Positions 19,628 through 50,889 of a stretch of 62,490 nucleotides of DNA are shown here, one piece after another. The DNA lies in the NCBI GenBank assembly GCA_002753735.1, contig PEAN01000017.1, positions 1-62,490 on the forward strand, read 5' to 3'. Positions within the stretch are counted from its first letter, which is position 1. Every line of letters begins with the position of its first letter. Under the pieces are notes generated by a model. That model ran no database searches and had not been told where the DNA came from. It saw nothing but the letters and a program-made list of their open reading frames with translations. Origin of the DNA: Magnetococcales bacterium DCbin4. Lineage in GTDB: Bacteria > Pseudomonadota > Magnetococcia > Magnetococcales > UBA8363. Position numbers and translations under genes: made by a program.

Positions 19628-21697
19628 TCAACCTTTGGAAGTGAATACGAACACCCCATCCCAATCAGCAGGCGGCGGATTGGAAAGATATTCGGTGCAC
19701 CGTTCCAAATAGGTCTTTGATGGACCATCCCCTGGAATTACCGCCAACGCATTTTCAAAATGGCCAATCGCATCCTTATAGTTTCTGGCACGGTACTGTT
19801 CCAGTCCGGCCGTGTAATGGTTGAGGAGATCAGCCATTTTTCCAGTCACTTCCCCTTTCTTGCCCAGCAACTGGTAAATGATAACCGGCTCTTTCTTGCC
19901 GATCACACGCACGGTATCCAATACCCGGCAGTCGATGTCATCTTTAGCCAGATTGAATGTGGCATCGGAAATCATGGTATCGGAGGCGTAAAACTTGTTG
20001 GCACCCTCCAAACGTGCCGCCAGGTTTACCGCATCACCCATGATGGTATAGTCCATGCGTTGCTTGGACCCCATGTTGCCCACCACCATCCGTCCCGAAT
20101 TGATCCCCATGCGGACCCGCAGTTCCGCCCGCCCTTCCCGGGCAAGACGTTCCCGCAACTGGACCATGTATTGTTGCATTTCGACGGCGGCATGGCAGCA
20201 GAGCGTCGCATGGTTGGGCTGATCCAACGGGGCACCCCAGAAGGCGATAATGGCGTCGCCCTCGAATTTGTCGACCGTTCCGTCGTATTTGGCAATGATG
20301 CCACACATGGCGGTCAGGTATTCGTTGAGCAACTGGACCAATTCCGATGGGGTCAATTTTTCCGAAATCGTGGAAAATCCGGCCACGTCGGAAAAATAGG
20401 CGGTCATGACCCGTTCTTCACCCCCCAGGGAAAGTTTGGAGGGATCCTTGACCAGGATGTCCACCACCTTGGGCGACAAATATTGACCAAAGGCGCCCTT
20501 GATCATTTTTTTCTGGCTCATCTCCTGGAGGTAGTAGCGCATGTTGATGATCATGAAACTCATGATGGCGGCCAGGAGGGCGTAGGACATCGAAAAAACC
20601 AATCCCTGGTGGATGTACACCAGCGTCACCCCGGCCCCCCACAGGCAGATGACCAGGAAGGCGACCAGGACACGCACCGTCGGATGTTTGATGACCCCCA
20701 GAACGACCATGCCCAACATGAGTATCATCGCCACCAACGCCTCCTGGGTGATCGATGCGGGGCGCAACGGCCCCCCCTTGAGCATGGTCTGGATCACATC
20801 GGCAATGATTTCCACCCCATAGACCATCCCCACCGGGGTATCGAACCAGTCGTGTGATACCTCCGAGGTGTCTCCAAGAAGGACAATTCTGTCCTTGACC
20901 GGATAGCTCAGTTCGTAAAGTTCTTCTTCACTTTTCCCTGAAATGTTCAGATAGTCGAGGGCAGAAAATCCTGCCGATTGACTGAGAAAACGACTTCCAT
21001 GGGGGAGGGTGGGGAAATCGATATAGATGTTGTTGAACTGATCCAACGGTATGCTCAGATCGGGTCCGAAGCGGAGCACTCCCGGTGACAGTTCCGGTTC
21101 CACCCCGAGATACATTGCCAACGCCTTGATGGCATAAGGCCAAGCTTTTGCTTTCTCAACGATTTCAGGGTATACCTTCAATCGGGACAGGCTCGTGACC
21201 AAACCACTCTGGGAGCCGATGTTGGTATATCCGTTTTCAGTCACCGCCGCCAGTTCCGCCGTGGGTTGGTTCAGTCGGACAAAGGTGCCGTCATGAATGT
21301 CGGCCTGTGACACCAGCAGGACGGGGGCTGCCTTTTTCAAAGAGGCGGCGGTGGGTTGATCCTCATGATAGGAGCTTGGAAAATCCATCAAAAGGTCGAT
21401 GGCGACCACCCGGGCACCCAGTTCCTTGAGGTTTTCGGCAATTTTGCCGATATCGGTCCGCCGGAGGGGAAAACTTTTATATTCCTTGAAAAACGATTCA
21501 TCCGTGTTGACGAGGACGATTTGTTCCGCAGGGAAACGCATCCGCGCTTCATCCGCATAATTCTGGCGCAGGATATGGCGGAATGAAATGGTCTGTTCTT
21601 CAATCAGCGAGAAAAGTTCAAAATATTCTGCTGGGATGGCAATGAGAAAAAATAGAATGGTCGCGATAATATCGTAACGTTGGAAGATTTTGTTCAT
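19628..21697 (-). CDS. CHASE2-domain class III adenylate/guanylate cyclase
   Basis: This 689-residue protein has an N-terminal TM helix, an extracytoplasmic CHASE2 sensor domain (about 35-310) and three further TM helices (about 320-400). A class III cyclase catalytic domain follows (about 430-610). Metal-binding Asp437 (FSDVAGFS) and Asp481 (FEGDAIIAFWG) are visible, as is the 'VRMGINSGRMVVGNMG' segment. A short TPR-like C-terminal tail follows. It would make cAMP from ATP in response to an extracytoplasmic cue; cGMP cannot be excluded. The 1225-residue tandem-CNB protein about 25 kb away is a possible effector. Confidence 0.9.
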   Translation of the reverse strand: MNKIFQRYDIIATILFFLIAIPAEYFELFSLIEEQTISFRHILRQNYADEARMRFPAEQIVLVNTDESFFKEYKSFPLRRTDIGKIAENLKELGARVVAIDLLMDFPSSYHEDQPTAASLKKAAPVLLVSQADIHDGTFVRLNQPTAELAAVTENGYTNIGSQSGLVTSLSRLKVYPEIVEKAKAWPYAIKALAMYLGVEPELSPGVLRFGPDLSIPLDQFNNIYIDFPTLPHGSRFLSQSAGFSALDYLNISGKSEEELYELSYPVKDRIVLLGDTSEVSHDWFDTPVGMVYGVEIIADVIQTMLKGGPLRPASITQEALVAMILMLGMVVLGVIKHPTVRVLVAFLVICLWGAGVTLVYIHQGLVFSMSYALLAAIMSFMIINMRYYLQEMSQKKMIKGAFGQYLSPKVVDILVKDPSKLSLGGEERVMTAYFSDVAGFSTISEKLTPSELVQLLNEYLTAMCGIIAKYDGTVDKFEGDAIIAFWGAPLDQPNHATLCCHAAVEMQQYMVQLRERLAREGRAELRVRMGINSGRMVVGNMGSKQRMDYTIMGDAVNLAARLEGANKFYASDTMISDATFNLAKDDIDCRVLDTVRVIGKKEPVIIYQLLGKKGEVTGKMADLLNHYTAGLEQYRARNYKDAIGHFENALAVIPGDGPSKTYLERCTEYLSNPPPADWDGVFVFTSKG

Positions 21698-34281: not shown

Positions 34282-35724
34282 ATGGGAATCGAATTGATGG
34301 AATATTTCCACATCATAAAGAATCGTCATGGACGTCATATGCCCGCTATTGGTTTTCTGTTGATGGCGATGATGGTCCTGGGAGGATGTACCACGCCTGG
34401 TTCCGGCACGGATGTCTTATCCCAACCTGTGGCCAACATGAAATCGTGGTTTGTCAACGAGGCCCCGCAAACAGGGGTGGGGGAATCCCGGGGGGCGAAA
34501 GCATATGAGGACGGGGTCCATTATGAAGGGGGGTTCAAGGATGGCAAACGTCATGGGCGCGGGATCCAAACCTGGCCCGATGGTGCTCGTTATGAGGGGG
34601 AGTATCAAAATGATAAACGCCATGGACAAGGGGTCTTCACCTGGCCAACGATGGCACGTTATGAAGGGGGGTTCGTCGAAGGGAAGCGCCACGGGCATGG
34701 GGTCTATACCTGGCCCAATGGTGCTCGCTATGAGGGGGGCTATGTGGATGGACAACGGGACGGAGCCGGAACCTTCTCCCACCCGCCTGATGAGATGGGG
34801 CGAATTCGACAGGAACGGCAAACATGGGGCATGGATCAGTTGATTGCCAGCAGTCCTGTGGAGCGTGGACCCGAGGTGCCGTTGCCCAAGGTGGTGGCTC
34901 AAAGTGTATTGCCGCAGACGAAGCCGACTCAAATGGTGATGCCGATCCGGGAGGGGCGTTCTGATCATGAATCAATGATGGCGGCGCCCATCCCCCCCAT
35001 GGCAGCCGATTCCGGGAGGATGCAACCCCGGCTTTGGAGCGATCCTGAGACGGGGATTACAATGGCGCAGATACCGGGAGGTTGTTTTTCCATGGGCAGT
35101 GAGACGGGCGAGGAGAATGAAAAACCGGTCCATGAGGTGTGCGTCGATCCCTTCTGGATGGGCATTCATGAAATTACGCAAAAACAATGGCGTTTGGTGA
35201 TGAACTGGCTGCCGGAACAGTCGGTGCGTGGCGACGACTTGCCGGTTGGCAATGTTTCATGGGCCGATGTGGGGCAGTTTTTCCAGACGATCAACCGTCG
35301 CTCTGGGATTGCCTTCAGTTTGCCGACCGAAGCGCAATGGGAATTCGCCTGTACGGGTGGGGGCCTGGACAAACGCCACTGCGGTCAGGGGGTGGTGACT
35401 GATCTGGCCTGGGTTGAGGAAAATGCCGACAATCGTGTACATCCTCCGGGAGGACGGGCCCCGAACCGGTTCGGGATCTACGATATGACCGGCAACCTGT
35501 GGGAGTGGGTGGCTGATGCCTATGATGCCAACTTTTACCGTTATTCCCCTCGGGACAATCCCGATGGTCCTGTGGCAGGTGCATCGCGTGTCTTTCGCGG
35601 AGGGGGTTGGTTGAGCAAGGGCGCTTCGGCTCGGGCGACATTACGTTATGACATGGATCCCAAACGTTCCTACCATCTTCTGGGGTTTCGGCCTGTCGCC
35701 GTCCGGGTGTTGGATCTGCGCTGA
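34282..35724 (+). CDS. Lipoprotein with MORN repeats fused to an FGE-sulfatase-type domain
   Basis: A 480-residue fusion. The N-terminus has a hydrophobic stretch ending in a lipobox-like VLGGC, so it is probably an outer- or inner-membrane lipoprotein. Four MORN repeats follow ('YEGGFKDGKRHGRG' and relatives, about 75-165). After a linker, the C-terminus is an SUMF1/FGE-type domain ('PGGCFSMGSETGEENE', 'LPTEAQWEFACTGGG', 'YDMTGNLWEWVAD', 'LGFRPVAV'). Catalytic FGE cysteines are not evident, so it may be a binding domain. Several in-frame ATGs precede the signal; the first was kept. Confidence 0.85.
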   Translation: MGIELMEYFHIIKNRHGRHMPAIGFLLMAMMVLGGCTTPGSGTDVLSQPVANMKSWFVNEAPQTGVGESRGAKAYEDGVHYEGGFKDGKRHGRGIQTWPDGARYEGEYQNDKRHGQGVFTWPTMARYEGGFVEGKRHGHGVYTWPNGARYEGGYVDGQRDGAGTFSHPPDEMGRIRQERQTWGMDQLIASSPVERGPEVPLPKVVAQSVLPQTKPTQMVMPIREGRSDHESMMAAPIPPMAADSGRMQPRLWSDPETGITMAQIPGGCFSMGSETGEENEKPVHEVCVDPFWMGIHEITQKQWRLVMNWLPEQSVRGDDLPVGNVSWADVGQFFQTINRRSGIAFSLPTEAQWEFACTGGGLDKRHCGQGVVTDLAWVEENADNRVHPPGGRAPNRFGIYDMTGNLWEWVADAYDANFYRYSPRDNPDGPVAGASRVFRGGGWLSKGASARATLRYDMDPKRSYHLLGFRPVAVRVLDLR

Positions 35725-36493: not shown

Positions 36494-37597
36494 TCAAGAG
36501 AACAGTTCGGGTCTGGGCATGAATTCCTTGGGATCCACGTTCCACTTTTCATTCGGCTCGGAACGGATGATCCGATAGCCTTTTGTGGTGTCGTTGACAT
36601 GATCCATCAGGTTGAGATCGGTGGGTTTTAATTTTTTCCCCGTTTTTGCGTTGAGAATGATTTTGATGAAGGGATGGAGCAGACTTTCCATGTTGGAACG
36701 GATCACGACGCCAACGAGACCGTTTTCCAGCCGAACCAGGGTTCCGATGGGATAGATGCCGACCGATTGGACAAATTTTTGATAGAGTTGCGGATTGAAA
36801 TGCTGTTTGGACCAGTCCAGCATGCGTTTCAAAGCGACATGGGGGGGATTGCCTTTATGGTAGACCCGGTCGGAGGTGATGGCGTCATAGACATCGACGA
36901 TGGCGGCCATTTGACCGAATTCGTTGATTTCGTCAGCTTTGAGTCCTTTGGGATAACCGGTGCCATCGAATCGCTCATGATGCTGGGCGGCAACAAAGAC
37001 GCTGATTTCGGAAATGCCCGGGATGTTTTCCAACAATTGGCGGCTGAAGGTGACGTGTTGTTTCATGATCTGGAATTCTTCCTCACTCAGCTTGCCAGCC
37101 ATGTTGAGGATGCGTTCTGGAGTGCGCATTTTGCCGATGTCATGCAGCATTCCACCCACCCCGACCTTGATGATGGTCTCATCCTCCATGCCGAGTGCGC
37201 GGCAGAATGACATGAGAAAGACGCCGACATTGACCGAGTGCATGAATGTATATTCATCACGTTTTTTGATCAGGCTCAAACTCAGGATGGCATCGGGATT
37301 ACGGAACATGGATTCAGCCATGTTGCGAACGGCATCCTGGACAGGCCCCAGGGTGACTTGTTGACCCAGACGGGCGTCTGACAAAACATTGCCGACGATT
37401 TTTCGGGCTTGGGATTTGACTTCAGCGGCGGTGTTGAGTTCTTCCTCGAAAGGTTCTTGTTTTGTTGGTTTGAATCTGAGTTCTTCGTCATCATCCAATG
37501 CCAGGAGTTGCTCCGACAGGGTTTGTTCGATGTTGCTGATGGGATTTCTCCCCGAAGCTTCAGGAACGGCACAATGTTTATCGGTTGTAGTACCCAT
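36494..37597 (-). CDS. HD-GYP domain cyclic-di-GMP phosphodiesterase
   Basis: A 367-residue cytoplasmic protein. The HD-GYP domain occupies the middle: the HD pair is in MLHDIGKM (about His152-Asp153), followed by 'QHHERFDGTGYPKGL' and 'DVYDAITSDRVYHKG'. Family members hydrolyse cyclic-di-GMP (or other cyclic dinucleotides) to set motility versus biofilm. The N-terminal 110 residues are Asp/Glu/Lys-rich and the C-terminal 100 residues are a small unrecognised domain. AGGAG seven bases upstream fixes this start; a longer frame adds 41 His/Arg-rich residues with no such site. Confidence 0.9.
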   Translation of the reverse strand: MGTTTDKHCAVPEASGRNPISNIEQTLSEQLLALDDDEELRFKPTKQEPFEEELNTAAEVKSQARKIVGNVLSDARLGQQVTLGPVQDAVRNMAESMFRNPDAILSLSLIKKRDEYTFMHSVNVGVFLMSFCRALGMEDETIIKVGVGGMLHDIGKMRTPERILNMAGKLSEEEFQIMKQHVTFSRQLLENIPGISEISVFVAAQHHERFDGTGYPKGLKADEINEFGQMAAIVDVYDAITSDRVYHKGNPPHVALKRMLDWSKQHFNPQLYQKFVQSVGIYPIGTLVRLENGLVGVVIRSNMESLLHPFIKIILNAKTGKKLKPTDLNLMDHVNDTTKGYRIIRSEPNEKWNVDPKEFMPRPELFS

Positions 37598-38080
37598 TGC
37601 GGGTCTCCTGTGAAATCGGTGATGGATCCTTGATGATTTGTGAATCGGACCACAGTGGGTTCGCTCATGTTTACGCGTGTTCATGTTAGCATGGTCGCCA
37701 CGGTTTGGAAATGCCGGCAAGCGTGATCGTTGTCGGCGTGAACAGCGAATGGCGCAACTGAACAGGAAATGAATTTAAATATTGAGAAACAACATGCTGC
37801 AGGTGTATGAAGACCTGCATTCAATTATGATGATGATCAATTCAAGTGATGTATTGCAATGAATACGTTACGCAATGTGACTTTCGGGGGCTGCAATGTC
37901 ACATAGGATCATTGCAGTTTGTGCTGTTGGAATTACAGGAAAAAATGAATGGATTTCTATTGACTTTTAGGTCATAGTCCGTTGAGATATCCATATCGGG
38001 TGGGGCGTGAAGATGGATATGGACCTTTCCCGGGTTTTCGTCATCGACGTGCTTTCGACCATAGCCACGAATCGGACTCC
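37598..38080. other. Divergent regulatory gap between HD-GYP and CHAT genes
   Basis: About 480 bp, A/T-rich in its middle, with no convincing gene. It must hold the promoters of two divergent transcripts. A direct repeat GCAATGTGAC/GCAATGTCAC lies at about 37874-37903, followed by a third ATTGCA near 37912. It could be an operator, but no known motif was matched. Confidence 0.4.
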
Positions 38081-41000
38081 ATGAAAAATAGATACCTGAT
38101 CTTTTGTGTTTATGTTGGGTTGCTGGCCACCCTGCTCACGCAGGGAGGGGTGGGAGCCTGTGCGGCGGAGCCTGTTGCCGGGAAGACCGAGGCGGCGGCA
38201 AGTGATGCCGGTGCCCGGGAGATGGAGGAGACGTTGAAGGCGGCCCGGGCGGGCGACCCCGAGGCACAGTTTAAAATTGGTAATTTTCATTATCTTGGCA
38301 AGGGGGACAAGGCCGATACGGCGCAGGCCCGGATCTGGTTTGAGAAGGCGGCCTTGCAAAACCATGTGGAGGCTCAGGCCAGTTTGGGGGTTTTGCTCTA
38401 CATGGGGGCGACACGGGAACAGGATATCACCAAAGCGGTGGAATGGTTCCAGAAGGCGGCCCAACAGGGACACGCGGGGGCACGCAAACATTTGGGAATT
38501 CTGTACGATACTGGACAGGGGGTTGCCCAGGATCCGATGGAAGCGGCCAAGTGGTATGGGTTGGCGGCCGCCAGCGGTCATCCCGACGGGGTTCGTCTTT
38601 TGGAACGGGCTTTGGAACTTGCCACCAAGGCGAAAAATCCCGATCAGCAACAAATTCAGGCACTCCAGGGACAATTGGCCCAGCTAAAGAAGGGGGGGGC
38701 GGAACAGGCCAATCCCCTGGCCAATCTGTCGCTCAGCCTTAACCAGGCGCTCGACCTGCAAAATCAAGGGCTTTATGACCAGGCGCATGCCGCATTGAGC
38801 AACATCTGCGGCGAATTTTTGAAAACCGCCGGGGACAAGAATCCGGAAACGGGATGGTGTTTCAATCGGTTGGCGGTTTTGGAAAGCGTCATGGGCCGGT
38901 TGGATGATTCCGAGGCGACGTTCAAACGTGCGCTCGCCATGCAAAAGGGAGCGCTTTCGGAGAACCATCCCGATGTTCTGGCGACGCTGACGGATCATGC
39001 GGAACTGTTGCGCATGCGTGGGCATTTCAAGGAGGCGCAGGCCCAGCTTGAAAAGGTTTTGGATCAATCGTCCGCAGAGGGGTTGGTGGAAGTCCGGATG
39101 ATGGCCAAGGCCAATCTGGCCAAGGTGTTCGAGGAATTGGGCAATTTCAAGGAGGCGGTAAAACTGAATCGGGAAATTCTGGACCATGAGACCCGAACCC
39201 TGGGTGCCGATCATCCCAACCGGCTGACGACTTTGAACAATCTGGCGGGACTTGGGCGGCGGTTGGGCAATTTTGCGCAGGCGGAACAAGAATACCGTCA
39301 GGCGTTGGCAGGGTTTGGAAAAATGTTGGGTTCCGAACATCCCGCCACCATTACCCTGATGAACAATCTGGCGACGACGCTAGAAGAGGAAGGACTCTAC
39401 GATCAGGCGGAACCCTTGTTTCTGCAAGCCTATGAGGTATCGAAAAAGGTGTTGGGCAAGGATCATCCCACCACCATGGCCAATATGAACAATCTGGCCT
39501 TGCTATATGAAAGCCAGGGGGTTTTTGAAAAAGCGGATGCATTGTATCGCAGTGCCATTGCCTTATCGGAAGCCAAATTGGGGGCGAATCACCCCGATAC
39601 CATCGCCATCGTCAACAATCTGGCCTATCTCGCACTGCTGAAGGACGAGTACAAGGAGGCGGCGCAACATTTTCAAAGGGTTTTGACGGTTTGGCAGGGA
39701 GACCTGGGTGAAAAACACCAGAAGACCCTGAAGGCGATGAACAATCTGGCACGGGCGGAACACAAGGGGGGTCGGCTCAAGCAGGCGGAGACCTTGTTTT
39801 TGCGTGCGTTGTCTTTGAGAAAGGAGCTTTTGGGAGACAAACATCCCGATGTTTTGCGCTCCATGCATGATTTGGCGTCCCTGTATCGGACCCAGAAACG
39901 GAACAAGGAAGCCTTGGAACTGTTGAAGAAGACGCTTGCCCTGGATGAAGAGGTGTTGGGCAAACAACATCCCTATACCTTTGAGACGCTCAATACGTTG
40001 GCTGCGACACTGGAGGAGGCCGCAACGGTTGAGGATGCCTATACCCTGAGGCGCGAAGGATTCAATCGCCGTTCAGATTTTCTCAACCGCATGTTGTGGG
40101 TTGCAGATGAAAATGCACGTGAAGGATATGTCCGGTTGCATGCCCCGGAATTGGATGCCTACCTGAACCTCCTGACCCGGTTGCCGGTCGAAGTGGGGGG
40201 GCGGGAAGTCCTTGAGGCCAGTTTGCAACGGAAGGGATTGTTGCTCAAGATCACCTCTGAGATTCAGCAGGTGAGTCAGATCGCCAACGATCCCGCTCTG
40301 AACGAATTGACGCAACAATTGATTCAGGCACGCAAGGAACTGGCTGCCTTGACGCTGGCAGGCCCCACGACCGATCCCAATGACAATCATCTTGAAAAGA
40401 TCAACCGTCTGGAAAACAAGGTCGATGACATTGAGCGCCGGCTTGGGCAGGCCAGTCAACGTTATCGGCACACGATCCTTGAATATTCCGTGGACCAGTT
40501 GCTGGACCATCTGCCACCCCGGGCTGCTTTGGTCGATTTTTTGGTGTTTCATCAGAATGGACAAAGCAAGCTGATGGCAAGTACCCTGGTGATCAAGGAT
40601 GGGAAGCCACAGTTCAACATGGTGGTTTATCCCAACCTGGATGAGGTGCAAAAGGGGGTGGTCGAATATCGGACCAGCATTCAGAGTGAAGATATGGAAC
40701 CTGAAGAGGTTCGTGAGGTTGGGCAAAGAATCTATGATCTGGTCTGGAAACCGGTGGCTGGGTTCATTGGTGACCGGGATGAGGTTTATCTGGTGCCCGA
40801 TGGGATTCTCAATATCCTTCCGTTCAATGCCCTGGTTGATGCCAACGATAAATATCTGATTGAAACCATCAAACTGCATATCTTGTCTTCGGGACGTGAT
40901 ATTCTTCCTTCAAACATACCTGCTGCCACGGGAGGAATGCTGGTCGTTGCCGGACCAGACTATGATTCCAAAAAAGTGGCCGATGCGGTACAATTGGAGC

Positions 41001-41746
41001 AGGTCAGCCAAAAACGGGCCGCGGCCATCCTGCAAGGGGTGCGCGGTGCGGGCAGTGGCATGCGTGGGTTGCACTTCGATCCCCTTCCCGGTGCGGAAAA
41101 GGAAGGGAAGTTGATTATCGATCAAGCGAAGGAAAAAGGGCAGAACAACAAAATCTTCACCCAGAACGACGCCCAGGAGAAAATGGTACAGGGGTTGGAT
41201 GTGCCGCCACGGATGATTCATGTCGCCACCCATGGATTCTTCCTGAAACCAGACGACAGTCTGAAGAAAAGGTTGTTGAAGCTGCAACGTGGTGCCGACA
41301 TTCAACTGCCCCCTCCGGGAGACAATCCGTTACTCCGGGCGGGGCTGGCCTTTGCCGGCATCAATACCAACGCCCCTTTTCTGGGTGAACTGGATACGGT
41401 CAATGATGGTGTGTTGACGGCTTTGGAAGTGTTGGGACTCAACCTTGAGGGGACACAGTTGGCGGTACTGAGTGCATGTGAAACCGGTTTGGGTGAGATC
41501 CATGAGGGGGAAGGGGTTTATGGATTGCGGCGGGCATTCATGGAAGCGGGGGTTCAATCCATTGTTGCATCATTGTGGGAGGTCAGTGATGCGGGGACGC
41601 AAAATTTGATGACCAAATTCTATGGCCGCCTGATGACGGGTCAGCCGGTGTATACCGCCATGAGGGAATCACAATTGGAATTGTTGAACAGTGCCGAATG
41701 GAGCAATCCATACATCTGGTCAGCGTTTATGTTGGTTGGAAAATAG
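38081..41746 (+). CDS. Exported Sel1-TPR-CHAT caspase-like protein
   Basis: A 1221-residue protein. The first about 29 residues are a signal sequence; Cys27 follows a VGA, so a lipoprotein is possible. Sel1-like repeats (about 40-175) lead into at least ten kinesin-light-chain TPRs (about 215-690) with repeating 'LNNLA' and 'HPxTI' signatures. A C-terminal CHAT (Caspase HetF-associated with TPR) domain ends the protein. The His/Cys dyad is in IHVATHGFF (His1051) and SACETGLGE (Cys1133). CHAT domains are caspase-fold proteases, usually gated by their TPRs. It is followed by the FecR-like gene with a 103-bp gap. The start is set by the signal peptide. Confidence 0.9.
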   Translation: MKNRYLIFCVYVGLLATLLTQGGVGACAAEPVAGKTEAAASDAGAREMEETLKAARAGDPEAQFKIGNFHYLGKGDKADTAQARIWFEKAALQNHVEAQASLGVLLYMGATREQDITKAVEWFQKAAQQGHAGARKHLGILYDTGQGVAQDPMEAAKWYGLAAASGHPDGVRLLERALELATKAKNPDQQQIQALQGQLAQLKKGGAEQANPLANLSLSLNQALDLQNQGLYDQAHAALSNICGEFLKTAGDKNPETGWCFNRLAVLESVMGRLDDSEATFKRALAMQKGALSENHPDVLATLTDHAELLRMRGHFKEAQAQLEKVLDQSSAEGLVEVRMMAKANLAKVFEELGNFKEAVKLNREILDHETRTLGADHPNRLTTLNNLAGLGRRLGNFAQAEQEYRQALAGFGKMLGSEHPATITLMNNLATTLEEEGLYDQAEPLFLQAYEVSKKVLGKDHPTTMANMNNLALLYESQGVFEKADALYRSAIALSEAKLGANHPDTIAIVNNLAYLALLKDEYKEAAQHFQRVLTVWQGDLGEKHQKTLKAMNNLARAEHKGGRLKQAETLFLRALSLRKELLGDKHPDVLRSMHDLASLYRTQKRNKEALELLKKTLALDEEVLGKQHPYTFETLNTLAATLEEAATVEDAYTLRREGFNRRSDFLNRMLWVADENAREGYVRLHAPELDAYLNLLTRLPVEVGGREVLEASLQRKGLLLKITSEIQQVSQIANDPALNELTQQLIQARKELAALTLAGPTTDPNDNHLEKINRLENKVDDIERRLGQASQRYRHTILEYSVDQLLDHLPPRAALVDFLVFHQNGQSKLMASTLVIKDGKPQFNMVVYPNLDEVQKGVVEYRTSIQSEDMEPEEVREVGQRIYDLVWKPVAGFIGDRDEVYLVPDGILNILPFNALVDANDKYLIETIKLHILSSGRDILPSNIPAATGGMLVVAGPDYDSKKVADAVQLEQVSQKRAAAILQGVRGAGSGMRGLHFDPLPGAEKEGKLIIDQAKEKGQNNKIFTQNDAQEKMVQGLDVPPRMIHVATHGFFLKPDDSLKKRLLKLQRGADIQLPPPGDNPLLRAGLAFAGINTNAPFLGELDTVNDGVLTALEVLGLNLEGTQLAVLSACETGLGEIHEGEGVYGLRRAFMEAGVQSIVASLWEVSDAGTQNLMTKFYGRLMTGQPVYTAMRESQLELLNSAEWSNPYIWSAFMLVGK

Positions 41747-41849
41747 CGTTGTTTGTGGTGATTCCAACCAGTCTGTCCGGGAAGGTCCGTCAGACATGAA
41801 ATTTTGTTTATGATTGTCACTACCATCATCACAATATGGGAGAAGGTTC

Positions 41850-42791
41850 ATGAAACCGCATCTGATCAAGTACAGTTTCCTGCTGATGGCCGTTTTTGTA
41901 TTGGGATTGGCCAGCCAGGCGTTAGCGCTTGCACCACCTGTGGCGATGCTGACCCAGGTCAAGGGAACGGTGGAAATTTCAAAGGACAAGGAATGGAAGA
42001 AAGTCACCGCCAACAAGTTCATTTTTGAAGGTACCAAGATTCGTACCGGAGCGGATGGATCGGCTTCCATCGTCAACCAGACCACCAATACCAGTCAGAA
42101 TCTGGCGGCCAACAGTGAAGTGGAAGTGACCACTGCTGCCATCAAGGTGGTATCGGGTACCCTTTCTGAGCCGCAAAAGGCGGGCGATTCGGTATTGGCC
42201 AGCATGAATCAACGGTTTGAACAGGCACAGCGGTATACCACGGTTCGTCGCAGTGTGGACAAGAAAGACAAGGAACCAAAATTGACGACGGCGCGTGAAA
42301 TCACCCTGACCGAGGCACATCCTGATCTGGTGTGGTCCAATATGGGTGAAGAGTTTTCCTACCGTTTGATCATCGACGAAAAAGGGGTTGAAGTTCCTGC
42401 CAGCAAGGAGAGCATGATTCGTTACAAGGTTTCCGGTCTGACCCCGGGTGCCCACAAATATCGGGTCGAAGTGGTGAAGGATGGGGTTTCGGTGTTCTCT
42501 CCCAAGGGTGATCGCACTTTGACCTGGTTGGGTGGCGCGGCGTTGGATGAGTTCAACAAAAAACTGGGTGAACTCAAGGCAGCGGCTCCCGGAGATGAGT
42601 TCCTGATTGCCAATTTCCTGGATGAAAAAGGTCTGACCGTTGCGGCCATGGACATGTACCGGAAATACTTCAAAGACAATCCGGATGAAGTGGATATGTT
42701 TCCACTGTTGATCAAAACCTATCATGACCTCAAGTTGGATGGTCTGAAGAAGGAAGCAGCGCTCGAGTATAACAAGAACGCTGGCAACTGA
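41850..42791 (+). CDS. FecR-like domain secreted protein
   Basis: A 313-residue protein with a cleavable N-terminal signal peptide (about 1-27). A FecR-type beta domain follows ('GTVEISKDKEWKKVTA', 'GTKIRTGADGSASIVN'). Fibronectin/Ig-like and helical segments come next. The C-terminal region (about 240-313) has a helical repeat like a partial TPR. FecR domains outside iron signalling act as extracytoplasmic sensing or assembly modules. GAAGG upstream supports the ATG. It sits just after the CHAT gene, with which it probably forms a unit. Its partner is unproven. Confidence 0.8.
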   Translation: MKPHLIKYSFLLMAVFVLGLASQALALAPPVAMLTQVKGTVEISKDKEWKKVTANKFIFEGTKIRTGADGSASIVNQTTNTSQNLAANSEVEVTTAAIKVVSGTLSEPQKAGDSVLASMNQRFEQAQRYTTVRRSVDKKDKEPKLTTAREITLTEAHPDLVWSNMGEEFSYRLIIDEKGVEVPASKESMIRYKVSGLTPGAHKYRVEVVKDGVSVFSPKGDRTLTWLGGAALDEFNKKLGELKAAAPGDEFLIANFLDEKGLTVAAMDMYRKYFKDNPDEVDMFPLLIKTYHDLKLDGLKKEAALEYNKNAGN

Positions 42792-42810
42792 TTATTCCTT
42801 ATTGGTAAGC

Positions 42811-42847
42811 AAAAAGGGATGGAGGGCAACCTCCATCCCTTTTTTTG
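42811..42847 (+). terminator. Strong rho-independent terminator after the FecR-like gene
   Basis: Perfect 14-bp stem (AAAAGGGATGGAGG pairing with CCTCCATCCCTTTT) around GCAA, followed by more T. It ends the CHAT/FecR transcript. Confidence 0.95.
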
Positions 42848-43503
42848 TTTCTGAGATACGCATGAACATTCTTTCACTGAATATACGATCACATGGGAAT
42901 GCTGGACAAAATTCATTTCGCTGCGAAAGTTATATATTACAATATAATGTTCATGTCATCGTTTCATCGCTTATTGAAGTTTGCAATTGTTGTTTGTCGG
43001 TGATCATGCAAAAAAATGGTTTCCATCAATTATTGTCTTGATCTCCAGTTTCGGCGGGTGGATACTATTAAGAATGGCACAATTTATTGTGGGAATATGT
43101 AACGAAGTTTCAATTGAATTCATGAATTCTGAAAGGAGATGCTTTGGGAACAAAGATTCATTTTCTTTGGAGCGCTTAAAGATTGGCGTGATCAATCTGA
43201 GAAGCGTCTAAATGGCTACGCTTTGTCGCGTTGCATACCGGGTGCAATGTGAGCGGTAGTAGGATTTCCTTTACTTCCAGAATTGGGTGTTTGGGGGTAT
43301 TGCGTAGTTGGTTGTTGTGCATTTGGTGCATGGATCTGCATTGAGCGAATAAGTTTCATCGTGGACAGTCGAGTCACATTGGATTTTGAAATGGTGCAAT
43401 CACGTTTAATTAAACACAAATATGATGATGTATGAAACAAAGAATACACATGTAGTTTGTATTTCAGCCGAGAAATCAAAAACTTCTGCAAGAGGGGCTG
43501 TTT
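42848..43503. other. A/T-rich gap before the chemoreceptor
   Basis: About 655 bp of markedly lower GC with no gene that looks real. A minus-strand 47-codon stretch (43216-43359) is the best small candidate, but it lacks a ribosome-binding site. The region presumably holds the promoter and leader of the chemoreceptor gene. Confidence 0.5.
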
Positions 43504-46353
43504 ATGACTGCAATAAAGTTGAATTTGAGAAACAAAATAATAGCTTTTTTTATCGTGGCTGGAATACTTCCTATGATTATAATTTCATTATTTGGTGTGT
43601 TTAAGTCAGAAAAGAGTCTTATTGAATCCGAGGAGCACAAGTTACATGCCTTGCGTGATGTGAGAATCAGTCAGATTGAACAGTTTTTCCAGGAACGAGG
43701 GGGGGATTTGCGGGTCTTGACTGAGATTGTCGCATCTTTGCGCTCGGAAGCTATTGATAAGCTGGAAACCATCCAGTCCGACAAGAAGGACTCCTTGAAC
43801 ATCTACCTGGCAGCGTTGGAACAACAGTTGACGCAGATCAAGGGAGATCCTTTGGCGGTTTCGGCGTTGGATGAATTCAAACGGGCTTGGATGGCGGGGG
43901 GGAAGAAGATCGATTCTGCGGAATGGAAACAAACCTTGCCCCGTTTTGACCCGCGTTTGACCGAAATTCAGAAAAACAACAAATGGTATGATTTGTTTTT
44001 GATCCTGCCTGAGGGGGATATCGTCTACACCGCGGCCAAGGAGGCAGACCTGGGGCAAAACCTGTTGCAAGGTTCGCTCAAGGAGACTCCGTTTGGGGTG
44101 GCGTTCCAGAAGATGGTCAAGATGGATCGAACGGGGAAGGTATTCAGCGATCTGGCGCCCTATGCCCCCTCTGCGGGCGCACCCGCAGCATTCATGATGA
44201 CGGGCGTCTACCGTGAGCAAGGGGAATTGGCGGGCTATGTCGCCTTGCAGATGCCCATGGATCGCATCAATTCAATCATGTCCCTGCGCAATGGCATGGG
44301 GAAGACGGGAGAGAGTTATCTTGTCGGGAAGGATGGTTTGATGCGCTCTGATTCCGTACTTGATCCAAAGCAGTATTCCATCGAGGCATCATTCAAGGAT
44401 CAAAGGAAGGTCAACACGGAAGCGGTTCGTCAAGGTGTGGAAGGGAAGGAAGGGAGGGGGATCATCAAGGGGCGTGATGGCCAGTTGGTCCTTGCTGATT
44501 GGGATCCCATCAATCTGGGGCAGGATGTGCGCTGGGTCATGATTTCGCAAATCGATGTGGCAGAAGCGTTTGTCCCTGTCGATGCGGAAGGCAAGGAGTT
44601 TTTCAAAAAATATGTCGAGATGTATGGCTATTATGATCTTTTCCTGATCGAACCGGAGGGGTTCGTGTTTTATACCGCGGCTCGGGAACCCGATTATCGC
44701 ACCAATATGCTGACCGGTCCCTATGCCGATTCAAATCTTGGACGCCTGGTCAAAAGTGTATTGGGGAGTGGTCAGATCGGGTTTGCCGATTTTGCACCTT
44801 ATGCCCCCAGCAAGGGGGAACCGGCGGCCTTCCTTGCCCAACCCTATGTTCATGGCGGCAAAGCTCAAATCGTCGTTGCGCTGCAATTATCAACGGAAGC
44901 CATCAACAAGGTCATGCAACAACGTGCTGGGATGGGGGAGTCAGGTGAAACCTACCTGGTGGGTCCCGACAAGAGGATGCGTTCCGATTCGATCCTGGAC
45001 AAGGAAGCGCGGTCGATCAAGGCATCCTTTGCGGGAACCGTTGATAAAAATGGGGTGGATACCGAGGCGGTGCGGGAGGCTTTGGCCGGTAAGGAAGAAG
45101 TTCGGATCATTCGGGATTATCGTAACGTTCCGGTCCTGTCCGCCTATGGTCCGCTCAAGGTGTTCGATCAGACCTGGGCGGTGATGGCGGAAATCGATCA
45201 GCAAGAGGTTGAGATTCCGGTTGTGGTATTGGAAAAGGCCATGATTGCGGTCACGCTTGTGGCTTTGGGATTGGGTATGGTCTTGATGTGGATCATCGTG
45301 CGGGGGATTTTGCATGAAGTGGGTGGGGAACCGGAGGCAATCTCCGAGTTGGCGACACGGGTTGCCCATGGCGATCTGACCATGCGATTTGATGCACTTG
45401 CCAAAACGAGTGGGATCAATCTGGCGATTCAGGAAATGGTGGTCAAGCTCAAGGAGATTCTCGACGGTGTTTCGGCGGCCACGGTGCAGATCACCTCTGG
45501 GACAGGGGAGATTGCTGAGGCTGCGCAGAATCTGGCCCAGGGTGCGACGGAACAGGCGGGATCCCTTGAGGTGACCTCTGCGGCCATGGAAGCCATGACC
45601 GGGAGTTGCCAGCTCAATACGGATAGTTCGAATACCACCCAGACCATTGCTTTGAGGGCGGCCAAGGATGCCGCCCTGGGAGGCGCGGCGGTGGATCAGG
45701 CGGTCAAGGCGATGAAGGAAATTGCTTCCAAAATTGGCATCATCGAGGAGATTGCCCGTCAAACCAACCTGTTGGCCTTGAATGCGGCGATTGAGGCGGC
45801 TCGGGCGGGGGAGCATGGCAAGGGGTTTGCCGTCGTGGCGGCCGAGGTGAGAAAATTGGCGGAACGCAGTCAGTCCGCGGCGGGAGAAATCAGCCAGTTG
45901 TCCGTATCCAGTGTTCAGGTATCGGAACAGGCGGGCAACATCATCGGAAAACTGGTTCCCGATATTCAGGATACGGCAGAGCGCATCCGTGGCATTACGG
46001 AATGCAGCCGGCAGCAGCGCGAGGGTATTGCCGACATCGACCGGTCGCTGCAACAGTTGGACGTGGTGATTCAGCGTAACTCTTCTTCATCCGAGGAGCT
46101 GGCCGCGACGGCTGAAGAATTGAATGCCCAGGCCAGAGCGATGGAACAAACCATGTCCTTCTTCAAAATCGGCCACACCGAAGGCCGTGGGATCCAACCA
46201 AGGGGGTCCGCAGGGAATCAAAATTTTGGGCGTCAAACGAAGACGGTGGTTCCAAAAGTTCGGACGCCGATGATTGCCATCAAGGGGGCCGATCATCATT
46301 CGGTTGCGGTCGCAAAATCTGCCGGTGGAGATGATGCGTTTGAATCATTCTGA
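43504..46353 (+). CDS. Methyl-accepting chemotaxis protein with duplicated sensor region
   Basis: A 949-residue chemoreceptor. TM1 lies at about 13-32. The large periplasmic region (about 35-575) contains a duplication: a segment beginning '[10 protein letters not shown]' near 162 recurs as '[10 protein letters not shown]' near 377, each with a 'TGESYLV/SGETYLV' and 'MRSDS' segment. TM2 (about 578-602) and a HAMP domain follow. The MCP coiled coil contains the highly conserved '[20 protein letters not shown]' tip near 755. It senses an extracellular ligand and controls CheA. Cache-type fold is inferred. AGAGGGG precedes the ATG. Confidence 0.92.
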
Positions 46354-46529: not shown

Positions 46530-49500
46530 TCAATTCCGCCCTGGCGTGGGTGCGCTGTTTTTCAGTGTCTTTCCCGTGGTCTGCAAAAGGCGTTGCGTCA
46601 ATTTGATCAGGAATTGATCTTTGAGCTTTTCCCGAATTTCCGAACCCATCCGTTTCATCAAATCCTGATCCACCCGCATGACCAGAACTTCCCCCTGGCT
46701 GATGACACTGCTGGTCCGCTGGGAATTGGTGAGAAAGGCCATGTCACCAAAAAAATCGCCCGGTCCCAGTTGTGCAATGACGATTCCCCCTTTGACGACA
46801 TTCACCTTGCCATTGATGATAATGAAAAACGAGGTGTCCAGGGTCCCCTCTCGAATGATTTCACCATTGGCACGAAAGGTACGGAAACTGGTGTTGAAGG
46901 CGGTGATCCGTTTTTTTTCATAAGCGGAAAACTGGGCAAAAAATGGCAGTTTGTCGATCAGTGCCATCGATGTATCACGATCCAGTGTCCTGATTTCGCC
47001 TTCAAGAGGGGGGGCGATGACGGTGGAGACGTCAATGGCGGCGGGACCGACCAGACGATCCGTGGTTTCCGCCAGCCGGGCAACCTGACGGTTGATGATG
47101 TGATCCTTGAACTTTTCCCGGCTCTCCTGTTCCAGATGGTTCATCATGTCCTGGTCCATCCGTAACACCAGGACGTTTTCATTGGCCTTGATGTTCATGG
47201 TGCGGGGCGTATTGGTGAGGAAGGAGATTTCGCCGAACATTTCTCCAGGGCCCAGTCTGGTGATGATCTTATTTCCTTTGGTCACTCTGACCGTCCCCTT
47301 GAGGAGGACGAAAAAGGCCGTATCATGGGTTCCATCTTCAATGATATACTCATCTTTATGAAACATTTTGAAGCTGACATCCTGTTCCGCAATCCGCTTT
47401 TTTTCATACTCGGAAAACCGTGAAAAGAATGGCAGGCTGTTGACCAGTTTGAAAATGGCAATGCGGTTGGCCCTGATTTGATCTTCCCGTGTTTTCTCGG
47501 GACTGGGTTTGGGTTGGGGTTGTGTTGGGGCCTGGGCAGTTGGGCTGCCGGGTTGTCCCGGAACCTTCGGTGAGCCAAAGCGTGTGATGGTTGTATCGGG
47601 GGATTCGGTTGGGGTTCCATCGCCCGCCTGAACCAGACGGATCGCCTTGCCAAAGGTTTCATCATTGAATTTGGCATCGATGTTGACCAACCCTGCCTGG
47701 GCGCGGATGACAATGGGCAATACGACCTTTTCCTGATTCTTGCCGCCGCCCATCAAGGCAAACGAGCGCACCCGCTGCTTGAACCGGAACGCATCTTTTT
47801 CCAATGCCCCTTCCTTTTCCATGGCCAGGAGCATTTGACGCAGTTCCTGCCGTATGTTCATGGCGGGTTCCGCGATCTGTTTGGGACGGTTGCGAATATC
47901 CAGCAGTTCATCATCCGCCGATTCCCCGGGGTGAATGGACAGTATCCCGACTGCTTTTTCCAGTACCTCCTGAAGCTGTTCAAAATCTTTCCGGGAAGGG
48001 ACGTTTTGCAGGTTGCGATACAGGTTGAGGACTTTTAACAGCAGCAGTTTGGTGAATGAGGTGATGGCCAGATTGACCTGGTCGCGATCCCTCTTTTTTT
48101 GCGTTTCGCTGGTCAGATGAAACTCCATGACCCGTTCAGCCAAATCCCTGAAGGCAAACCATACATTGTTGGGAACCCCTTCGGGCGCCGATCCGGAACG
48201 GGGGGCCATGTTGAATTCCGCTTCCAGGAGAACCCCCTCGCGATGGACGACACGGACCATCCCTTTTGGTTCGCCGGGATCGGGTTGCATGACCTGAATG
48301 TCGGGAATGGCGTCGGGTAGGGCCTGAAGGCTGGATACGGCAGGGACATTGTCGGTTTTTTCGCTGACGGTCCCGCCGGAGGTGCGCAGGGCGACCAGAT
48401 AGGCGAGGAAGCTCTTGGTGGAGAGGGAATGCATCTGTTCATCATTGGTTCCAATCTGAAAATCCCGGATGATCCCTGACAACGGTTTGTTGATACGGGC
48501 TTCGCAGGCCCGGTCCAAATATTCGGAATACGCATCGTAACGGGTGAGGATGGTTTCGAGTTCCCGGTCGGAGACGGGTTGGTCACTGACCTGGGTCGGA
48601 TCGAATTTCAGGGCGTCGCGTTTGGCCTTTTCCAGGTTGAGGAGGTGACTTTTCACGGCCAGCCGAACCAGGGATTTGTGCAACAGGGTGGTGATGTGTC
48701 TTTTGATGTTGAGGTCGAGGGTTGCGCCAAGGGTGGCTTTGATATTCCTGTCTTCGGTGGCAGCCAGTTCCTTGGCCAGGGTTTTGGTTTCTTTGGCAAA
48801 CAGTTTGGACGCCAGAGTACGTGTGACCAGGGAAACAACATCGCCGAACATGGGGGTATCGGTTTCGGCAGATCCTGAATTCGATTTGGGCAGGAACTCG
48901 ATCAGTTTCTGGTCAATACCTTCTGCCTTGAGGTGGGCGGAATCATTGATTCCCTGAATCATGGCGGCAATGGCGGTATCTTTGGTGGCGTCGGCATCGA
49001 CCCAACCCGATAATTCATTGGTGATGGCGTTGAGCAGGCGCAAGGTCTCATGACTGACACTCATGGAGGTTTCGCTGCCGCTGGCGCCCGCATAGACCGG
49101 TGCCAGCACCTCTTTGACGGCTAATTCCAGGGCCAGAATACCGACACCATCCCGGTTGGCTTTGTGGATTGCCGTACTGACGCTACGCACAATGTTTTTG
49201 CGATCCTTGGCCAAGGACATTTCCAAGGCATGGGCCACCAACCCTTCAAGGATGGCATCGCGGATGTGCAGGACGGTTTTTTCGCATTCCTTCAGGTGCG
49301 CTTCCTGCTGTTCGGGGGTGTTGCCATGGGGAATACCGACGTAGGAGACCTTTTCCGTTTCCGTCAGGAGCGTCAATCCATGGACAGTAAACATCTCCTC
49401 AATGGTCAGAAGATTGTTCTCATCGACGCTGATTTCCATGATGATGGGATCATGGACATCGCGGTTCCAGGTTCGGGCATCGATGCCACCGCCACTGGCC

Positions 49501-50207
49501 CCTGCCAATTGGGTGAAAAAGGGTCGGTCGATTCGTTGCCGGATTCCCTTTTTCAGGATCAATACTGGCTTGCTGTCATCGCGTACCATCCCTTTGGGGC
49601 TGGAAATGAACATGCCCCATTCATCCTCTCCTTCCGATTCGAGGAGTCGGATTTGCATGTGCATATGTTCTTTATTGGTGGCGATGACCAAAGGCTTGTC
49701 CGGAGTGCATTGGCTCAGGCTGTAGGTGAACAATCGCCGGGAGCGCAATGAATCAATCTCTTCCGGTGGTGCGGCACCGGTCAGTTCGAGGGGCGGTTGG
49801 TGGAGACGTGGTTGCCCCTGAGAATTCTTTTCCTGGTCCAGGGTCAGCACCATGCCGCCCGGGTGGAGATGGATACCGATCAGTCCCTTGAACATGAATT
49901 CGGTGACTGCTTTTTTCTTCCGGTCGGTAGGGGGGATGATCTCGGAAGATATTTCGCGTTGACCCGACAAGGTTCTGACCTGATAGTCCGCACCGACCAT
50001 TTCGATGTGACAACTGATTCCCTCCCCTTTGACAAACAGAGGGCAAAACACATTTTCCAATGCGACAATTCCCAAAGGTTCCAACGGAGGATGGGTGAAT
50101 TGTCCAGCCGTACTCCGGGGTTTGACGGGTGTTTCGCTTTTTCCCTTTGCCGGTGCCTCGCCTTTTGTTTTTGACGGGACAGGATTGCTCTTCTTAAAAA
50201 GGCTCAT
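46530..50207 (-). CDS. Large protein with two C-terminal cyclic-nucleotide-binding domains
   Basis: A 1225-residue soluble protein of a type not recognised in full. Its last third has two CNB domains (about 920-1030 and 1080-1195). Each has a phosphate-binding cassette: 'GPGEMFGEISFLTNTPRT' in the first, and 'GPGDFFGDMAFLTNSQRT' in the second, where Glu is replaced by Asp and Pro-Arg by Gln-Arg. The first 900 residues are mainly helical with no identified fold. No helix-turn-helix, kinase, channel or catalytic motif was found. The start with GGAG and nearby SD was preferred over a frame 36 codons longer. cAMP from the CHASE2 cyclase is a plausible ligand. Confidence 0.85.
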   Translation of the reverse strand: MSLFKKSNPVPSKTKGEAPAKGKSETPVKPRSTAGQFTHPPLEPLGIVALENVFCPLFVKGEGISCHIEMVGADYQVRTLSGQREISSEIIPPTDRKKKAVTEFMFKGLIGIHLHPGGMVLTLDQEKNSQGQPRLHQPPLELTGAAPPEEIDSLRSRRLFTYSLSQCTPDKPLVIATNKEHMHMQIRLLESEGEDEWGMFISSPKGMVRDDSKPVLILKKGIRQRIDRPFFTQLAGASGGGIDARTWNRDVHDPIIMEISVDENNLLTIEEMFTVHGLTLLTETEKVSYVGIPHGNTPEQQEAHLKECEKTVLHIRDAILEGLVAHALEMSLAKDRKNIVRSVSTAIHKANRDGVGILALELAVKEVLAPVYAGASGSETSMSVSHETLRLLNAITNELSGWVDADATKDTAIAAMIQGINDSAHLKAEGIDQKLIEFLPKSNSGSAETDTPMFGDVVSLVTRTLASKLFAKETKTLAKELAATEDRNIKATLGATLDLNIKRHITTLLHKSLVRLAVKSHLLNLEKAKRDALKFDPTQVSDQPVSDRELETILTRYDAYSEYLDRACEARINKPLSGIIRDFQIGTNDEQMHSLSTKSFLAYLVALRTSGGTVSEKTDNVPAVSSLQALPDAIPDIQVMQPDPGEPKGMVRVVHREGVLLEAEFNMAPRSGSAPEGVPNNVWFAFRDLAERVMEFHLTSETQKKRDRDQVNLAITSFTKLLLLKVLNLYRNLQNVPSRKDFEQLQEVLEKAVGILSIHPGESADDELLDIRNRPKQIAEPAMNIRQELRQMLLAMEKEGALEKDAFRFKQRVRSFALMGGGKNQEKVVLPIVIRAQAGLVNIDAKFNDETFGKAIRLVQAGDGTPTESPDTTITRFGSPKVPGQPGSPTAQAPTQPQPKPSPEKTREDQIRANRIAIFKLVNSLPFFSRFSEYEKKRIAEQDVSFKMFHKDEYIIEDGTHDTAFFVLLKGTVRVTKGNKIITRLGPGEMFGEISFLTNTPRTMNIKANENVLVLRMDQDMMNHLEQESREKFKDHIINRQVARLAETTDRLVGPAAIDVSTVIAPPLEGEIRTLDRDTSMALIDKLPFFAQFSAYEKKRITAFNTSFRTFRANGEIIREGTLDTSFFIIINGKVNVVKGGIVIAQLGPGDFFGDMAFLTNSQRTSSVISQGEVLVMRVDQDLMKRMGSEIREKLKDQFLIKLTQRLLQTTGKTLKNSAPTPGRN

Positions 50208-50889
50208 ACACTCTTTCTCCCCCAGTCGCAATCGGGTTTTGTGTCGGTCGGCGTGTTCAATGGACGGGTTGGTATTCCCGAAAGAATTTTCAGGTGCGTC
50301 ACAATCATGTGGCATTGCCGATCCATGGAACCGTATGGGTATGCCTTTGTCAAGAATAACATGGTCAAAAGAAAATTACAGCGAATCTTTGCGTGCAATG
50401 ATCCATCGTTGCCGGGATCGATTGGGCCGAAGGATGATGGCCGTGAGGGGCGGGAACGGCCATCATCCATAAATCCGGCCCACCAGCAGGTTGGGATTGG
50501 GGAAATCCCGCAGAAAACCGCCGGTTTCACAGATCGCCCGCGAAAGGGTGATCCCGGAAAAACGGACTCCGGCCAAAGATCATGCGCGGATCGTGCCGCT
50601 TCCATGGACGATCATGCACCATCCGGGTTTAATAACATAAGGTGAAGGAATACAGCATTGGTCTGAGGATGAGAACAATGGGAGCAATGCTGCCTGGATG
50701 CGTTTGGAGTAAAATATACGGGCAGGGGATCGATGAAATATTGGGTGAAGCGGTCTTTGGCTTCGTCGCGTACATGCCTGCGCTCCAAAGGTGACGGTAT
50801 GCAGGTCGCAGAAACCCGCTTGATTCAATCCAGCCACTTTTTTCAGATGATTGGCATCGGTGCGCTACGGGCGCTGCGGAAGACCCATG
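50208..50889. other. Intergenic region without a convincing gene
   Basis: About 680 bp with only short overlapping frames on both strands. A minus-strand stretch near 50470-50580 reads as a possible 36-residue peptide beginning at TTG, but it lacks a ribosome-binding site. The decayed transposase region begins at its right end. Confidence 0.4.

Follow-up and report, generated by a model that had tools for sequence, protein, structure and literature searches.

MtxA was described in Magnetospirillum as a "magnetotaxis protein" whose C-terminal part is known from the structure 4Z29, and its gene was reported next to that of a CHASE2 cyclase (PMC4439547). Here we analyze a stretch of 62,490 nucleotides (hereafter the window; contig PEAN01000017.1, positions 1 to 62,490) of Magnetococcales bacterium DCbin4, in which a gene of the same protein family follows a gene for a Sel1-TPR-CHAT protein, and report that this CHAT-MtxA pair is conserved across three lineages with the same kind of CHASE2-cyclase neighbor. 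The crystals behind 4Z29 needed trypsin, which removed the N-terminal part of MtxA, and the structure starts after residue 141 (PMC4439547). In the same work, deletion of mtxA left magnetosomes and swimming normal; one sentence of its Discussion terms MtxA "essential", which we take for a misprint because the data of that paper say the opposite. The same authors had already recorded MtxA in two strains that are not magnetotactic. The main text of PMC4439547 suggests a link to magnetotaxis and contains no occurrence of the term CHAT, whereas the set described here includes a CHAT protein and extends to genomes in which we found no magnetochrome. Strain SO-1, whose MtxA figures in that study, itself carries the arrangement mtxA-cyclase-CHAT (locus L115).

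Three further kinds of system resemble parts of this locus. LapG, a protease of the periplasm, releases adhesins by cutting off their retention modules, and its LapA-type substrates combine an anchoring-type beta domain, a targeting helix, a conserved cut site and an unstructured segment (PMC13090378, PMC6890996). MtxA, the presumed substrate here, shares this layout, with a candidate site in the position of the cut site. Among CHAT proteins, Csx29, the TPR-CHAT component of Craspase, works with Cas7-11 and cuts Csx30, with a lysine in the place of the P1 arginine (PMC9729208). A CHAT-like domain also occurs in a membrane signaling protein, as here, in the transmembrane anti-sigma factor DdvA (PDB 8rot, 8rw5), known to us from PDB titles and structure matches, but there it is part of the anti-sigma factor itself. 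Finally, the Burkholderia biofilm operon (BiofilmReg) encodes an exported FecR-domain protein beside a CHASE2 receptor (PMC5192318), and a protein of the same kind, Sinorhizobium smc02177, is encoded, by its locus number, next to cyaD1 (PMC5498481). These operons share with the present locus an exported protein encoded beside a CHASE2 receptor, although MtxA has no Pfam FecR match; the term CHAT is absent from both reports.

MtxA, its C-terminal structure, its cyclase neighbor and, elsewhere, FecR-domain proteins beside CHASE2 receptors are already known. The new parts are the CHAT partner, the linker of MtxA and the wide distribution. A previous sequence-only reading of the locus had put it forward as the window's best candidate for an undescribed system, which is correct in part: the mtxA-cyclase neighborhood is published (PMC4439547), but the literature searched, outside which most subscription journals lie, yielded no report of a CHAT gene in the cluster, of its two arrangements, of the linker motif read as a site or of the retention-like interpretation.

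The CHAT-MtxA pair is conserved in two gene orders

The Sel1-TPR-CHAT gene, recognized by sequence reading and Pfam, occupies positions 38081-41746 and encodes 1221 amino acids (MKNRYLIFCVYVGLLATLLTQGGVGACAAEP), and mtxA follows on the same strand after an intergenic gap of 103 bases (41850-42791, 313 amino acids; this and all features below lie on the + strand unless stated). The second product had been taken for an exported FecR-like partner. Its signal-like N-terminus agrees with export; its identity, however, is MtxA, as shown by matches to MtxA_C (109.4 bits) and MtxA_IG-like (96.9 bits; cut-offs 27 and 26, respectively), a DUF7354 match of 100 bits, above its cut-off, and a PDB match to 4z29 at E 1e-83, while Pfam FecR (PF04773) was not matched in a search up to E 0.1. 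Its nearest named relatives, among the best 120 of 269 homologues, are Magnetococcales.

The sequence-only reading had staked its proposal on the pair recurring elsewhere, and it does recur. Among the 48 Magnetococcia genomes compared, MtxA was found in 41, at 47 places, and CHAT in all 48. A CHAT match lay within 6 kb of at least 19 of the 47 MtxA places, always upstream and on the same strand, a CHASE2 match within 6 kb of at least 38, always downstream and on the same strand, and both were near at least 14; these are lower bounds, taken among the stronger CHAT matches listed and the listed CHASE2 matches judged relevant. We also surveyed public records with one genome per species and kept 80 loci of 97 confirmed relatives. 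The Magnetococcia of this survey overlap with the 48-genome set, and taxon groups were assigned from record titles, one locus titled only Proteobacteria (L111) being counted among the Gammaproteobacteria. In 71 of the 80 loci, the gene after mtxA encodes a CHASE2 cyclase. CHAT stands beside MtxA or the cyclase in 29, either directly upstream of MtxA (14 loci; 8/27 of the Magnetococcia and 6/33 of the gammaproteobacterial loci) or directly after the cyclase (15 loci; 15/18 of the Rhodospirillales group). The other three loci of the Rhodospirillales group either end at a contig edge (L106, L110) or have a cut-off CHAT gene (L118). Magnetococcia and some Gammaproteobacteria thus show the arrangement CHAT-MtxA-cyclase, Rhodospirillales the arrangement MtxA-cyclase-CHAT, and the presence of the same three genes in two orders argues for a functional set maintained by selection over simple inheritance.

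MtxA loci were also observed in bins labeled Planctomycetia or Stygiobacter (L112, L122, L097). Because the CHAT of L097, from a "Stygiobacter" bin, groups with those of Magnetospirillum, this locus was counted with the Rhodospirillales and is likely mis-binned. Tandem duplicate mtxA genes occur at L090 and G025:C32. At some gammaproteobacterial loci (L113:5705-9729, L144:1518-4028, L128, L099), further genes lie upstream of mtxA-cyclase: a CHASE2 Ser/Thr kinase (checked with Pfam at L113 and L144), with a PP2C phosphatase at L113 and L128 and, at L113, an FHA protein.

The CHAT protein has a signal-like start and an intact dyad

Behind a signal-like start, the Pfam layout comprises three Sel1 repeats, a TPR array and a C-terminal CHAT domain (residues 879-1221, 40715-41743; PF12770, 251 bits against a cut-off of 24). 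This start and the presumed catalytic residues His1051 (HVATHG, codon at 41231-41233) and Cys1133 (SACETG, 41477-41479) were read directly, in agreement with the earlier description of an intact dyad behind a signal sequence. Both residues are invariant across the 24 aligned mtxA-linked CHATs, and both motifs are present in 29/29 mtxA-linked CHATs. Furthermore, conservation points to Asp1170 (SLWEVSD, 41588-41590) as a candidate pocket residue for a P1 arginine: it is kept in 61/61 rows of the tree and in 120/120 homologues (the best 120 of 3809; the two sets partly hold the same proteins). From its spacing, this residue is the putative equivalent of the arginine-recognizing aspartate of separase. 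Residues 640-1221 are predicted to adopt a separase/Csx29-like fold, and the structural model resembles Csx29, separase and Arg-gingipain; as modeled, the protein is separase-like. The Csx29 model NF041237 gave only 17.6 bits against a cut-off of 300, and the transglutaminase-like cysteine protease domain of the LapG type is not among the 19 Pfam families matched by the protein.

A signal-like start was observed in all 25 mtxA-linked CHATs with a complete 5' end, and four of these, all gammaproteobacterial, have a lipobox. It is a common feature of the family, present in 93 of the 109 long homologues checked (from the best 120 of 3809). The rule applied is lenient: 165 of 508 other long frames satisfied it as well, and those frames comprise both genuine membrane proteins and frames that arise by chance. 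Neither Csx29 nor separase is known to be exported. The possible lipobox noted previously exists in the window protein as VGAC but is not kept, none of the six linked relatives L072-L077 having a Cys in the start region compared. We are unsure of the exact start codon of the window gene, since the clustered homologue P0121 starts further upstream.

A near-invariant linker lies between the domains of MtxA

MtxA consists of an N-terminal beta domain (DUF7354, residues 29-112, 41934-42185) that is like a cell-surface anchoring domain of adhesins and resembles 5ix9 in structure comparison, an Ig-like domain (residues 145-227, 42282-42530) supported by Pfam and 4z29, and a C-terminal TPR-like domain (PF22121, 42546-42776). 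Between the first two lies the linker YTTVRR (residues 129-134, 42234-42251), whose near-invariance makes it a candidate cleavage site. In the best 120 of 269 homologues it is the most conserved hexamer of the protein, with a mean conservation of 0.996 compared to 0.64 for the beta domain, 0.70 for the preceding helix, 0.58 for the Ig domain, 0.62 for the TPR-like domain and 0.55 for the remaining loop. YTTVRR itself was found in 117 of these homologues and its RR in all 120. A search with the C-terminal domain only returned 30 Magnetococcia frames, 29 with YTTVRR and one with YTTLRR. In the AF2 model, a helix (115-127) gives way to a loop with pLDDT below 50 at 134-140, and the motif sits between the predicted helix and this low-confidence loop. 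It is also kept at loci without an adjoining CHAT. A near-invariant stretch at a joint predicted to be flexible suggests that some partner reads YTTVRR.

CHAT co-occurs with MtxA away from the locus

Many MtxA-cyclase loci lack an adjoining CHAT. We searched 27 such genomes. They comprise L106, L112 and, from the 27 gammaproteobacterial loci that have no CHAT at their side, all but L120 and L145; L110, L118 and L122 were not included. Some CHAT was encoded elsewhere in 26 of them, at E <= 1e-65 in 23. A comparison sample of 398 Pseudomonadota included 350 genomes outside the class of the window, among which CHAT was found in 46 at E <= 1e-40 and in 3 at E <= 1e-65, and MtxA in none. Since these genomes are mutually related, the pattern is one of co-occurrence and does not represent independent events.

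Three of the free gammaproteobacterial CHATs (L167, L168, L169) all have signal-like starts, with Hsp70-like genes near all three and an outer membrane efflux gene of the TolC type near two. In two genomes where MtxA was not found, CHAT and CHASE2 matches are adjacent on the same strand (G013:C81, G007:C15), which connects CHAT with CHASE2 once more. Giant frames of 2,565-2,856 amino acids with a CHAT match were also observed in several Magnetococcia (G032:C88, G039:C25, G010:C17 and others).

MtxA extends to genomes in which magnetochrome was not found

The magnetochrome domain (PF18509), which marks magnetosomes, was found in 4 of the 35 MtxA-bearing genomes tested, the window genome included. 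It was absent from the other 31, namely M. aberrantis, M. fulvum and 29 genomes that we class as gammaproteobacterial, one of which carries only Proteobacteria in its title. Many of the 31 are incomplete bins, yet all agree in lacking it. A restriction of MtxA to magnetotactic bacteria was therefore rejected, which concerns the name of the family and not whether the window protein belongs to it, and the set is not tied to magnetosomes. As magnetochrome is mostly absent and deletion of mtxA gave no magnetic phenotype, the name MtxA is probably misleading.

The window organism itself is most likely magnetotactic, as judged from genes on another contig, where MamA, magnetochrome, actin-like and cation-efflux genes form a magnetosome-type cluster (L152; G000:C32:17000-36900); its MamA-like gene scored 200.8 bits, barely above the NCBIfam cut-off of 200. 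Two more MamA-like genes, on C119 and C28, fall just below the cut-off.

The cyclase is displaced in the window genome

The window genome (4.5 Mb in 148 contigs) and three sister genomes have no cyclase directly after mtxA. A CHASE2 adenylate/guanylate cyclase gene (CHASE2, 102 bits; Guanylate_cyc, 82 bits) lies instead at 19628-21697 on the - strand of the window. Its product shares 85% identity with the mtxA-adjoining cyclase of the sister locus L072; in the same comparison, three other CHASE2 places of the genome gave 26-38% over partial lengths (two places) or no match (the third). By sequence comparison, it is the orthologue of the mtxA-adjacent cyclase in sister genomes. The orthologue is on another contig in the three sister genomes that lack it after mtxA. 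Because the predicted orthologue lies elsewhere, and inverted in the window, the mtxA-cyclase operon is considered split in this sub-clade.

The terminator that had been reported after the unit is found as an intrinsic-terminator-like hairpin of 15 pairs at 42811-42844, the longest of eight terminator-like sites detected in the terminator scan, although the number of such sites is at chance level (mean of 7.3 in shuffles). A scan of the + strand from 37400 to 43700 gave no sigma-70-like promoter. Elsewhere in the window, a 1261-amino-acid protein (46530-50315, - strand) matches cyclic-nucleotide-binding domains twice, most strongly at residues 984-1061, and is a possible receiver of cyclic AMP (cAMP). 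A gene at 34282-35724 encodes MORN repeats and an FGE-sulfatase-like domain behind a lipobox-like start read by eye, and the frame at the window edge (18-2465) encodes a portion of a repetitive protein that contains RTX calcium-binding repeats.

Discussion

We tentatively favor, at somewhat less than even chances, the reading that CHAT is a periplasmic protease that cuts MtxA at YTTVRR and thereby changes the predicted cAMP output of the CHASE2 cyclase. The conserved neighborhood, the co-occurrence, the signal-like starts, the kept dyad motifs and Asp1170, the near-invariant linker and the structural resemblances speak for it. The periplasmic location is inferred from the signal-like starts; the protease activity, the site and CHASE2 as the receiver are likewise inferred. 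Both proteins would be exported to the periplasm, where CHAT would recognize the helix and YTTVRR of MtxA and cleave there, separating the N-terminal domain from the Ig-TPR body. One of the two pieces would thereby lose its hold on, or its inhibition of, the CHASE2 domain in the periplasm, and this would alter cyclase activity and, in turn, cAMP. A Sinorhizobium plasmid carrying CyaD1 without CHASE2 gave constitutive cAMP production, which indicates that CHASE2 can hold a cyclase down (PMC5498481).

On this proposal, CHAT would do a LapG-like job with a separase-like enzyme. The likeness to LapG/LapA/LapD lies in a periplasmic cysteine protease combined with a receptor in the membrane that is coupled to a nucleotide second messenger. 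The systems differ in that LapG is transglutaminase-like and cuts [T/A/P]AAG, whereas the enzyme here is a CHAT and the proposed site has two arginines; unlike in the LapA system, the proposed substrate is a small protein and the proposed receptor a CHASE2 cyclase. The most complete form of the proposal, a separase-type periplasmic switch in three lineages, unrelated to magnetotaxis, in which exported CHAT cuts MtxA at YTTVRR and controls the CHASE2 cyclase as a caspase-family counterpart of LapG/LapD working with cAMP and not cyclic di-GMP, is more doubtful.

MtxA might instead serve the CHASE2 cyclase in the periplasm, as its ligand or as a sensor subunit, with YTTVRR as a docking motif and CHAT acting as a scaffold or elsewhere. 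We consider this rather unlikely, although the adjacency of MtxA to the cyclase (71/80) is tighter than that of CHAT (29/80), YTTVRR is retained at loci without an adjoining CHAT, and CHASE2 receptors have exported FecR-domain proteins encoded next to them in Burkholderia (PMC5192318) and Sinorhizobium (PMC5498481). Docking alone does not readily account for a dyad-intact CHAT kept beside MtxA or the cyclase in three lineages and two orders, nor for the presence of some CHAT elsewhere in 26 of the 27 genomes tested that lack one at the locus. The tighter pairing of MtxA with the cyclase than with CHAT also bears on another reading, in which CHAT cleaves surface adhesins or other envelope proteins in the manner of LapG, regulated by MtxA as a securin-like pseudosubstrate inhibitor. 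Such a pseudosubstrate would likewise be near-invariant, the N-terminal domain of MtxA resembles an adhesin anchoring domain, and free gammaproteobacterial CHATs lie near Hsp70-like (3/3) and TolC-type (2/3) genes; with three free loci as its basis and MtxA more often paired with the cyclase, we regard this reading as improbable.

A role of the pair in magnetosome formation or magnetotaxis would fit the name and history of MtxA (PMC4439547) and the magnetosome-type genes of the window genome. It is very improbable given the normal magnetosomes and swimming of the mtxA deletion mutant (PMC4439547) and the absence of magnetochrome from 31 of 35 MtxA genomes, even with many incomplete bins among them. 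Sensing or processing, as proposed by the sequence-only reading, fits the present findings, but its suggestion of defence finds no support. Some CHAT proteases, for example Csx29, do act in defence, and the CHAT protein matches the candidate defence model PDC-M71B of PADLOC at E 6e-7, but in the TPR region (residues 503-582). Indeed, all three of its PADLOC matches (TPR, PDC-M71B, and AbiEii at E 0.0066) fall within the TPR region (residues 503-648), MtxA has none, and CHAT and MtxA occur in 48 and 41 of the 48 class genomes, respectively, beside a receptor cyclase. An envelope-located defence or cell-death system is thus the reading to which we give the least credence.

These results offer candidates for the partner enzyme and the receiver of MtxA, together with a single site of six residues. 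If cleavage of MtxA by CHAT proves true, caspase-type proteases would act in bacterial envelope signaling, and CHASE2 domains, the signals of which are called unknown in PMC5192318, would have a concrete candidate for their input. A new name would then be needed for a family called after magnetotaxis.

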